A stretch of DNA of 36,077 bases from a virus. Where the stretch lies: positions 3,678 through 39,754 of IMG/VR virus record IMGVR_UViG_3300030107_007026; one strand, 5' to 3'. The position numbers and the translations under genes were made by a program. Every line of letters begins with the position of its first letter. Position 1 is the first letter of the stretch. The notes beneath the pieces were generated by a model. The model did not search any database and was not told the origin of the DNA. It was given only the letters and a program-made list of their open reading frames with translations. This document shows positions 21,074 to 25,024 of this stretch, one piece after another.

Positions 21074-22207
21074 ATGGCACGCCCAACCAAGCTTTTCTCT
21101 TTAAACAAAAGAGGTTACTGGACTGGTTTTTATCACCGTGAAGGTTCTAGGCCTATTGAGCGCACGCTCATAAGTGACGAGAATTTGCGAGCGCAGGCTC
21201 GCACCAAGAGCCAACGCGACTCCTTCCTCCTTGAGCTCCACGCTCAAAAAAATCCTTCCGCGCAAAAGTCCGCGCAAAAGTCCGCGCAAACTTCCGCGAT
21301 TGATCGCGACAAGGCTAATTTCCTGGCCTACGTTGCTGCCGAAAGATCTCCTGCTACGTTCAAAGAGTACGCACATACCCTTAACCAGCTTGAGAGCTTT
21401 GAGGAGATTGACCTCCTTAAAAAGCGCTGGGCTGCACTGGGGCAGTCTCCGAATACGATAAACAAAAAGATTAGAACAATTCGCAGCTTCGAGAACTGGC
21501 GAGTAGAGCAGGAAAATAATGAGCGTGCAGCGAAAGCACTGCCGCTCACTCATGCCCGTAAGTTTCGGAACCTCCGTGTTGATCCCGCCAATATTGCCTC
21601 CTACACCAAAGAAGAGGCAGACCAGATCCTTGCACTTATCGAGGATCGGATTGCCAACCCTCCCTCTCATATCAATCCAGATCTAATTAGACGTTGGGAG
21701 CTGCTACGTAGAGCTTGGTTTTTGGCTCGTTATGCTGGGCTACGTGGATCTGAAATACTCTCCCTACGCTGGGAAGACATCGAGCTCAACCCAATCGATG
21801 AAGATAGCTTCATCGATATCAATAGCCACGAGAACGCCCGTGGCAGGTGGTTTCAAGTTAAGCAGCATCATGCTGCCAAGATCGAGATCATCCATACTCG
21901 CTTGATTCACGAGCTCCAGAGCTGGGATCGTAAGCACGAGTTTGTGTGTGGCAACCACTGGAATTCTAGCGTCGAGCTGGGGCGAGCATTCACTCGTCTG
22001 CAAGAGGAGCTGGGGATAAGTGAGGAGATCAAGCCAGTACACGGCTTTCGGGCTCTCTTTGCTACGGAGCTCCACAACTTGGGAGCTAGCTTAAAGGACG
22101 TAAAAGACCAGCTACGGCATAGCTCCATAAGCACTACAGAGCGCTACATCGACAAGCGCAATAATTCTCGTGGCTCCCGATTACGAGCTTTGACGGCTGC
22201 AGCCTAG
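21074..22207 (+). CDS. int: Tyrosine-family site-specific integrase
   Basis: The ATG at 21074 with GGAG nine bases upstream is chosen over a non-ATG start at 21008 that would run through a GC-rich hairpin. From this start (377 aa) the catalytic residues are R224 (AGLRGSE), H323 and R326 (HGFR), H349 (LRHSS) and the nucleophile Y358 (ERYID). The N-terminal part with RGYWTGFYHREG is an arm-binding-like domain. It is joined to a SAM-like core-binding domain by a linker made of SAQK/SAQT repeats. It should catalyse integration at the attP with the tRNA-Trp half about 2.8 kb downstream. No excisionase is obvious; one may be among the small genes. Confidence 0.93.
   Translation: MARPTKLFSLNKRGYWTGFYHREGSRPIERTLISDENLRAQARTKSQRDSFLLELHAQKNPSAQKSAQKSAQTSAIDRDKANFLAYVAAERSPATFKEYAHTLNQLESFEEIDLLKKRWAALGQSPNTINKKIRTIRSFENWRVEQENNERAAKALPLTHARKFRNLRVDPANIASYTKEEADQILALIEDRIANPPSHINPDLIRRWELLRRAWFLARYAGLRGSEILSLRWEDIELNPIDEDSFIDINSHENARGRWFQVKQHHAAKIEIIHTRLIHELQSWDRKHEFVCGNHWNSSVELGRAFTRLQEELGISEEIKPVHGFRALFATELHNLGASLKDVKDQLRHSSISTTERYIDKRNNSRGSRLRALTAAA
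21257..21298 (+). repeat. 12-bp in-frame tandem repeat in the integrase linker
   Basis: TCCGCGCAAAAG occurs at 21257 and 21269, then as TCCGCGCAAACT at 21281, with TCCGCG again at 21293. Each unit is four codons (SAQK, SAQK, SAQT, SA). It lies between the arm-binding and core-binding parts of the integrase, so copy number would change the linker length. Confidence 0.9.
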
Positions 22208-22307
22208 TTGCTGGGCAGCTCACTTCGGTGAGTTGCTCATGATGCGCACGTACATATTCGTACACATCTCGTGCACACCGTGCGCATCACTAGGCAACTT
22301 AACTAGG
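22203..22307 (+). promoter_or_regulatory. Structured RNA leader able to cover a Shine-Dalgarno site
   Basis: Three stems fit together. P1 pairs CCTAGTTGC (22203-22211) with GCAAC...CTAGG (22294-22298 and 22303-22307, four bases bulged). P2 (22215-22236) has nine pairs closed by a TTCG loop. P3 pairs GATGCGCACG (22241-22250) with CGTGCGCATC (22279-22288) and can hold an inner hairpin at 22260-22276. The 3' strand of P1 overlaps AGGAG at 22305-22309, the ribosome site of the leader ORF at 22315. Folding would therefore hide it. The 5' strand of P1 contains the integrase stop codon. A DNA-level role such as protein binding is the main alternative. Confidence 0.55.
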
Positions 22308-22314
22308 AGTCATT

Positions 22315-22344
22315 ATGAGTATTGAACAACATGGATGGGCATGA
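22315..22344 (+). CDS. 9-codon leader ORF coupled to the methyltransferase-like gene
   Basis: MSIEQHGWA is encoded from an ATG with AGGAG five bases upstream, the best ribosome site in this stretch. Its TGA overlaps the ATG of the methyltransferase-like gene (ATGA at 22341). Ribosomes that start here would be delivered to the larger gene, so opening or closing of the structured region would control both. It is too short to judge as a protein. Confidence 0.5.
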   Translation: MSIEQHGWA

Positions 22345-22955
22345 AGGTGCTGGTAGCCTGCGAATTCTCTGGGGTTGTACGTGATGCCTTTGAGACTCAG
22401 GGCCATGATGCTTGGAGTTGTGACTTGCTTGCAGCCAAGGGCAAGCATATCAAGGGAGACATTCGGGATGTACTGCATGAGCAGCACCCTTGGGACTTGA
22501 TGATATGCCACCCCCCCTGCACTCACTTGGCAGTCTCTGGGGCAAGATGGTTCAAGGACAAGCTCAAGGAACAGGCAGAAGCCTTGGAGTTTGTCCAGTT
22601 TCTTCTGGATGCTTCAGTGCCTCGCATTGCGCTGGAAAACCCAGTGAGCATTATCAGCTCAAGAATCCGTAAGCCTGACCAGATTATCCAGCCTTGGATG
22701 TTTGGTCACAATGCCAGCAAGGCTACCTGCCTCTGGCTTAAAAACCTGCCTCCATTGGAGCAATCCAATGTTGTGGAGCCTGACCGTTATGTCAATGGGA
22801 AGGCTCGTTATGCCAACCAGACTGACACAGGGCAAAACAGGCTTACCCCATCTGACGATAGATGGGCGAAGCGCTCTGAAACCTATGATGGGATTGCTGC
22901 AGCAATGGCTACCCAATGGGGCACACTTAACTTAGATATTTCAAAAGAGGAGTAA
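22341..22955 (+). CDS. Short cytosine-C5-methyltransferase-like protein, 204 aa
   Basis: Motifs of the DNA C5-methyltransferase family are present: VACEFSGVVRDAFETQGHDA (degenerate motif I, residues 5-24), CHPPCTHLAVSG with the catalytic-type PPC (C60), and ALENP (98-101, motif VI form). The protein then goes KATCLWLKNLPPL and ends without the target-recognition domain of full-size enzymes, at about two thirds of their size. Such short forms are known in phages; the modification they make is uncertain to me. ATG 22341 is preferred to ATG 22335 because it overlaps the leader stop. The gene lacks the GAGCTC words frequent elsewhere, suggesting separate acquisition. Confidence 0.75.
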   Translation: MKVLVACEFSGVVRDAFETQGHDAWSCDLLAAKGKHIKGDIRDVLHEQHPWDLMICHPPCTHLAVSGARWFKDKLKEQAEALEFVQFLLDASVPRIALENPVSIISSRIRKPDQIIQPWMFGHNASKATCLWLKNLPPLEQSNVVEPDRYVNGKARYANQTDTGQNRLTPSDDRWAKRSETYDGIAAAMATQWGTLNLDISKEE

Positions 22956-22959
22956 TTAA

Positions 22960-23196
22960 ATGGATGTTAGAGAAATAGCGGCAAAAGTAGCCAAAGAGCA
23001 AAATACGGAAGCCTACGATAAAGCAGATATTTTGAGGCGAGTCGAATTCCAGATGGCTCGATTTGATGCAAAGGATTTTGTTTATCACGTAGCAGGGCTC
23101 TCGTCTACCAATGCAGGAGAAACGCTTAAAGAACTCATTATTAAGGCGCAGGTAATCAAGCGGCTTTATGATAAAGGAGATGCAGATGAACGGTAA
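22960..23196 (+). CDS. Small helical protein, 78 aa, unknown
   Basis: It has a very good AGAGGAG site and begins four bases after the methyltransferase-like stop. The product (MDVREIAAKVAKEQNTEAYD... RLYDKGDADER) is charged and helical, without cysteines or membrane segments. It belongs to a run of small overlapping plus-strand genes. No family is recognised. Anti-defence or regulatory roles are common for such genes in phages, but nothing here proves either. Confidence 0.7.
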   Translation: MDVREIAAKVAKEQNTEAYDKADILRRVEFQMARFDAKDFVYHVAGLSSTNAGETLKELIIKAQVIKRLYDKGDADER

Positions 23197-23353
23197 AAGA
23201 TTAGAAATCATAGTAGTTCTGGATCTGGATGACGATGCAGATGTTGAAGAATTGATAACCGAATTTAATGACAATGAAGTCGATTATTCCTTTACGCACG
23301 ATTGGATTTTGGGCTCACACATAAAAGACTACATTACAAAGGAAGGATCATGA
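23186..23353 (+). CDS. Small acidic protein, 55 aa, unknown
   Basis: The ATG at 23186 lies seven bases after AAAGGAG and is preferred to ATGs at 23168 and 23180. It overlaps the stop of the gene before by 11 nt. The product has a beta strand then an acidic stretch (RLEIIVVLDLDDDADVEELI), resembling a small alpha/beta fold of the ferredoxin-like sort, perhaps a DNA-mimic or binding protein. Function is unknown. Confidence 0.65.
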   Translation: MNGKRLEIIVVLDLDDDADVEELITEFNDNEVDYSFTHDWILGSHIKDYITKEGS

Positions 23354-24517: not shown

Positions 24518-24521
24518 ATAG

Positions 24522-24557
24522 AGCCTCATTGCCTTTGGGTGATGGGGCTTTTTTTTT
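24522..24557 (+). terminator. Rho-independent terminator of the accessory operon
   Basis: AGCCTCATTGCC (24522-24533) pairs with GGGTGATGGGGCT (24537-24549) over twelve pairs, with some GU pairs and a TTT(G) loop. Nine T residues follow directly. It sits after the 108-aa gene and before the next plus-strand gene. Confidence 0.9.
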
Positions 24558-24569
24558 ACATGGAGTAAT

Positions 24570-24896
24570 ATGAAGAAATTAATCTTGGCCCTGCTATTAG
24601 CAGCACCAACCTGCCAGCCTGGATATTCTCACCAAATCGACTCGCTGGATTACCCTAGTCCATTCCTCATGGAGTGGATACACAACTGCAGCGAAGAACT
24701 AAAAATGCAGTACTACATGAAAGGGTATCCACCTCCCATTGCCGAACGATCTGCGATCTACAACTGCGCTTGTGTGATTGATCAACTGCGAAGCAAATAT
24801 TCCCAAAATATACTAATGGGGATGAGTCAAGAGGAGAGACGAGATGCCAGCGAGGAAGCGACTTTGAAGTGTTTGGGTTCGGGGAAAGTAAGTTGA
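24570..24896 (+). CDS. Secreted or periplasmic cysteine-containing protein, 108 aa
   Basis: The N-terminus MKKLILALLLAAPTC is a signal peptide (two lysines then a hydrophobic core). C15 could be a lipid attachment site, though the preceding residues are a poor lipobox. The mature part has several more cysteines, including a C-A-C in IYNCACVIDQL, and a helix-rich end. GGAG lies ten bases upstream of the ATG. It begins 12 bases after the terminator and so probably has its own promoter. A protein exported from the lysogen, for example in superinfection exclusion, is plausible but not shown. Confidence 0.7.
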   Translation: MKKLILALLLAAPTCQPGYSHQIDSLDYPSPFLMEWIHNCSEELKMQYYMKGYPPPIAERSAIYNCACVIDQLRSKYSQNILMGMSQEERRDASEEATLKCLGSGKVS

Positions 24897-24971
24897 TTGG
24901 TTCCCGTTTTACGGGACGGGAACAATTACGGGAAGGAATTCTGGAGGCTAGTGTTTATCATACGGGGCTTG

Positions 24972-25012
24972 GGATTTGGAATCCGCTGCTCTACCAACTG
25001 AGCTACTGGCCT
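24972..25012 (-). other. attP core: first 41 nt of a tRNA-Trp(CCA) gene
   Basis: On the minus strand the sequence starts with AGGCCAG (acceptor), TA, GCTC and GAGC (D stem with loop AGTTGGTA), then GCGGA, the loop TTCCAAA with anticodon CCA, and TCC. After nt 41 the pairing of the anticodon stem fails (C where G is needed), and no T-arm follows. It is thus the 5' part of a tRNA-Trp gene, not a working tRNA. Some marine podoviruses carry a similar 5' tRNA piece near the integrase as the attachment site. Confidence 0.82.
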
Positions 25013-25024
25013 AATGCACGGTAA

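Follow-up and report, generated by a model that had tools for sequence, protein, structure and literature searches.

A 96-nt non-coding element (22215 to 22310, plus strand) was found between the integrase gene and the next gene in the early block of a 39.8-kb phage record carrying an integrase, of which a 36.1-kb stretch (here called the window) was analyzed. The element extended from the base of hairpin P2 through the ribosome-binding site of the following gene, and 93 of its 96 nucleotides were identical in the related viral contigs L003 and L004. From sequence comparison and predicted folding, it is tentatively read as a bistable translational leader acting in cis, an assignment that we place somewhat short of an even chance. 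So far, the element is known from a single phage group, in two of its lineages.

The early block of the window lay on the plus strand and was composed of an HTH gene (20535), the tyrosine integrase gene (21074 to 22207; PF00589, phrog_1), and a series of small genes, the last of which ended at 24896. The element was followed in the window by a 9-codon leader ORF (22315 to 22344, plus strand; MSIEQHGWA) and a DNA methyltransferase-like gene (22341 to 22955, plus strand; phrog_757). Within the same block, a 14-bp hairpin and then a T run (24520 to 24551) made up a likely terminator, beyond which lay one further gene (24570 to 24896); L003 had a similar hairpin plus T run.

A related integrase, 71% identical, was encoded on three viral contigs, L002, L003, and L004, while a search for integrase relatives in bacterial genomes found none. 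L003 and L004 were the two intact relatives and continued beyond the integrase stop; L002 ended inside the 5′ strand of P2 (4119 to 4131 of that contig), 12 nt past the last sense codon of its integrase, where a variable or structured site may have interrupted the assembly. The comparison was thus made on three sequences (window, L003, and L004), effectively two lineages. More relatives were sought by means of a Sak4-like protein, the L003 integrase, and arms-only and linker patterns, and nothing new was recovered; the arms-only pattern gave 25 additional matches, all with unrelated middles. The predicted structure of the integrase (pLDDT 43) was too poor for use.

The integrase gene shared 68% nucleotide identity with those of L003 and L004, and 48% at fourfold-degenerate sites, and the sequence flanking the element was strongly diverged on either side. 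The stretch from 22215 to 22310 was the top blastn match between the window and the contigs of the relatives (E value 4e-42; 96.9% identity over 96 bp), and the conserved block was bordered by the base of P2 at its start and by AGGAGT at its end, despite the difference in the next gene. Between the near-identical phages L003 (4139 to 4140) and L004 (3914 to 3915), two adjacent bases of the P2 loop were the sole differences within about 270 bp on either side. A covariance model (R1) matched the element in the window phage, L003, and L004 only, and in none of the other sequences among 32 viral records searched, 29 of which had related methyltransferases. In Rfam, no family was matched at the gathering threshold, and the relaxed matches were at chance level and on the minus strand. 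A 28-codon ORF (MMRTYIFVHISCTPCASLGNLTRSHYEY; 22239 to 22325) crossed the element in the window, and the corresponding frame of L003 continued into the next gene; coding by this ORF was considered as the cause of the missing synonymous change and does not explain it.

Two neighboring hairpins occupied most of the element: (i) P2 (22213 to 22238, plus strand), in which 22213–22223 paired with 22228–22238, giving 11 bp, or 12 if T22212–A22239 is counted, around a variable tetraloop (TTCG in the window, with TACG and TTTG as the other versions), and (ii) P3 (22240 to 22289, plus strand), in which 22240–22250 paired with 22279–22289, giving 11 perfect base pairs below a 28-nt apical region. P2 began 5 nt past the integrase stop codon, and the two hairpins were one nucleotide apart and together covered about 77 nt. 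The fragment 22203–22309 had a predicted folding energy of −46.5, compared with −27.7 ± 3.2 for shuffled sequences (z = −5.9; 0 of 200 as good). The z score was −5.5 for P2 plus P3 alone and −4.1 for their minus strand; for the longer fragment 22203–22344, it was −3.1, with 2 of 200 shuffles as good. Inverted repeats of at least 11 perfect base pairs with loops no longer than 40 nt occurred at five places in the whole window, P3 among them. All pairs of P2 and P3 were kept in L003 and L004 except the outermost P2 pair, whose partner letter was missing there, and the P3 apical region (26 of 28 nucleotides identical across the relatives) was as conserved as the stems.

The region had been described before in an earlier note as three stems forming a translation switch for the enzyme gene, with helix P1 as the part that would open and close. 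All three stems were present, and P2 and P3 were both longer than described there, but P1 was not part of what is conserved. P1 (22203 to 22307, plus strand) did form as a pairing of 22203–22211 with 22294–22307 in the window, composed of 22203–22207/22303–22307 plus 22208–22211/22294–22297, with a bulge of five bases rather than the four reported; the minimum-energy fold gave an alternative version with eight continuous pairs reaching to 22300. The integrase stop codon TAG (22205 to 22207) sat within the 5′ strand of P1, AGGAG (22305 to 22309, plus strand) lay 5 nt ahead of the ATG at 22315 of the 9-codon ORF, and this ORF ended in ATGA, overlapping the methyltransferase-like ATG at 22341, all as had been noted. 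In both L003 and L004, the 5′ strand of P1 was changed from CCTAGTTGC to CCTAAGCAA, while the 3′ strand stayed unchanged, so that in each intact relative P1 was disrupted with no compensating change, which is the finding that the earlier note had itself named as counting against its helix. Of the nine pairs described for P1, four were intact in the relatives without variation and five were lost; of the eight pairs of the minimum-energy version, four stayed, three were lost, and one alternated between A-U and G-U. The four surviving pairs fell over the last codons of the integrase.

The methyltransferase as the target did not hold either. At this place, neither the methyltransferase gene nor the 9-codon ORF was present in L003 and L004, and AGGAG there directly served a homologue (60% identical) of the window gene at 23186, which was followed by a homologue (62%) of that at 23350; the ribosome-binding site was thus kept ahead of different genes. 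The methyltransferase-like gene and a 78-codon ORF made up a cassette in the window (22315 to 23185) that was missing here in L003 and L004, and it was therefore either gained in the window lineage or lost in the other. The sequences ahead of 20 methyltransferase relatives were inspected by eye, and no similar leader ORF was seen. On the sequences and models at hand, the earlier interpretation would be correct, at best, in the type of element proposed: switching of translation at the ribosome site is possible and plausible, by way of another, conserved pairing and not specifically for the methyltransferase.

This other pairing appeared when the sequences were refolded with P2 forbidden: a second predicted fold (state B) was obtained in the window, L003, and L004, in place of the fold with P2 (state A). 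State B was composed of P3 and two further helices: (i) P4 (22229 to 22301, plus strand), in which 22229–22237 paired with 22293–22301 (9 pairs), prolonging P3 and excluding P2, and (ii) P5 (22218 to 22310, plus strand), in which 22218–22224 paired with 22305–22310 (6 pairs), covering AGGAG. The ribosome site was wholly paired in predicted state B and mostly open in state A, and all 26 pairs of state B were kept in the three sequences. The predicted energy of state B minus that of state A was +2.3, −1.2, and 0.0 kcal/mol (window, L003, and L004, respectively) for a 128-nt fragment and +4.2, −0.5, and +0.7 kcal/mol for a 100-nt fragment, the two states thus lying within about 0 to 4 kcal/mol of each other and being mutually exclusive in all three sequences. 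The predicted probability of P2 at 37°C was 0.95, 0.52, and 0.71 (window, L003, and L004, respectively), so state A is predicted to dominate in the window. A thermosensor was considered and rejected, the predicted fold having no marked opening as the temperature rises.

Two controls were applied to state B. When the base pairs of P2 were permuted, an equally good alternative arose in 8, 1, and 2 of 500 cases (window, L003, and L004, respectively); when only the linker was shuffled, an equal or better state B arose in 40, 20, and 48 of 500, and the alternative fold is therefore only mildly unusual by the latter control. The linker was identical though the following genes differed, which fits the need of such a switch. 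In the covariation check that the earlier note had proposed for P1 to P3, no compensating change was seen in any stem, and the same was true of every helix examined in the window, L003, and L004, no pair varying on both sides. Covariation was absent because almost nothing varied, P2 and P3 being nearly invariant, and its absence therefore leaves room for a DNA-binding site or an mRNA-processing site.

If the element is a bistable leader, it would act as RNA in the early transcript, between the integrase stop and the ribosome site that serves the following gene. State A would have P2 and P3 formed and AGGAG mostly accessible. In state B, the linker would pair with the 3′ strand of P2 as P4, and AGGAG with the 5′ strand of P2 as P5, closing the ribosome site. 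The two states would interconvert, and the balance between them would set the translation of the first gene past the integrase, regardless of the identity of that gene. What drives the change might be a factor binding the conserved P3 apical region or ribosomes terminating at the integrase stop codon, which precedes P2 by 5 nt. The element resembles translational riboswitches and bistable leaders in having a conserved upstream domain and two folds that exclude each other and are close in predicted energy, the ribosome site being paired in one of them; it differs from translational riboswitches in having no known ligand, aptamer family, or Rfam match, and its alternative fold is a prediction. 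A more specific model, namely a new phage leader RNA family with P2/P4/P5 strand exchange as its expression platform, a 28-nt P3 apex that would sense a phage or host factor, and gene-independent control, is in our judgment unlikely.

The main rival to the RNA leader is a protein-binding DNA site, in which degenerate copies of CGTRCRCAT, phased at about 10 bp, together with the outer inverted repeat would make up an array serving as operator, promoter, or replication origin, and the hairpins would merely reflect the dyad symmetry of the sites; we consider it somewhat unlikely. The copies lay inside P3 (22242 on the minus strand and 22249, 22259, 22270, and 22279 on the plus strand; span 22242 to 22287): the window had three exact copies, all of them within the element, and, when one mismatch was allowed, five were gathered inside 46 bp. 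The direct-repeat score was matched in 24 of 2,000 shuffles (about 1%) and in 24 of 3,276 windows, and the 11-bp inverted repeat was perfect, as a DNA site would have it. The equal conservation of P3 loop and stem also favors this rival, since recognition of sequence, whether as DNA or as RNA, would fit it at least as well as folding. However, the motif was defined post hoc, its third copy lacked the first base in L003 and L004, no promoter was found in the element by −35/−10 boxes (sigma-70 type only), and the conservation extended across a 15-nt linker to include the ribosome site, for which a DNA site would have no need.

The fixed linker and ribosome site are likewise left unexplained if the hairpins are a 3′ structure of the integrase message, that is, an RNase site, hairpins stabilizing int mRNA, or a put-type RNA antiterminator, with no part in translation control, and this reading is distinctly unlikely. 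In its favor are the two closely spaced hairpins just beyond the integrase stop. In lambda, a hairpin structure just past the integrase stop (sib) serves RNase III retroregulation of int. The hairpins of the element were likewise directly beyond the integrase stop; unlike sib, its fixed sequence entered the ribosome site serving the gene that follows, and the probable attP lay elsewhere (see below). Neither P2 nor P3 was followed by a terminator-like T run. The arrangement also resembles the HK022 put RNA, which acts in processive antitermination and has two stem-loops in about 70 nt (PMC9378689): the element had two neighboring stem-loops of about that length in what would be an early phage transcript. 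Against this, put sits near early promoters; the element was not promoter-proximal as far as seen, was tied to a ribosome site, and had no Rfam match at the gathering or a relaxed threshold.

Very unlikely is a recombination joint, i.e., a short sequence without function of its own that was recently exchanged among related phages during cassette swaps. The presence or absence of the methyltransferase cassette directly past the element is what such a joint would give, but the borders matched the base of P2 and the ribosome site, both flanks were strongly diverged, and the element occurred in no other viral record searched.

The element at 22215 was initially read as the attachment site, and this reading was dropped once half of a tRNA-Trp gene was found. 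The 5′ half of a tRNA-Trp(CCA) gene (about 24972 to 25012) lay inside a 49-bp stretch (24971 to 25019, minus strand) that was 100% identical at the same place in L003 and L004, the highest blastn identity between the window and the relatives. It lay where the early block ends, 2.8 kb beyond the end of int, and was flanked on both sides by direct repeats, ACGGGAA in the window and TTTTACGG in L003. By its sequence, this stretch has the classical form of an attP core and is probably attP, and the element at 22215 is therefore probably not. It was the 5′ half of the tRNA that the segment carried, which is the less usual case. When the segment was used to look for a host, 398 genomes of the phylum of G001 gave no match with up to one mismatch allowed, and three phyla, each sampled with about 60 genomes, gave none with up to three mismatches allowed.

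An attP at P2, in which a variable overlap would separate two inverted core sites (CAGCTCA-CTTCGG-TGAGTTG) and the CGTRCRCAT copies would act as arm sites, would adjoin int, have its variation mostly in mid-P2, and resemble the annotated lambda core CAGCTTT-TTTATAC-TAAGTTG (read from the lambda record), sharing with lambda-type attP the inverted CAGCT...AGTTG arms as well as a second class of repeated sites beside int; it is scarcely credible, however, given the far better attP elsewhere in the genome at the tRNA-Trp half gene with its flanking repeats, and the P2 core had only 16 scattered matches in bacterial genomes, without extended similarity, where about 30 were estimated by chance.

If the element is indeed a bistable leader, it would amount to a compact phage RNA switch, constant while the gene under its control is swapped; it would link early gene expression to transcription or translation through the integrase and bring a phage element into the set of known regulatory leaders. 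Even as a DNA site, the conserved block would still mark an important control point of a little-known phage group.
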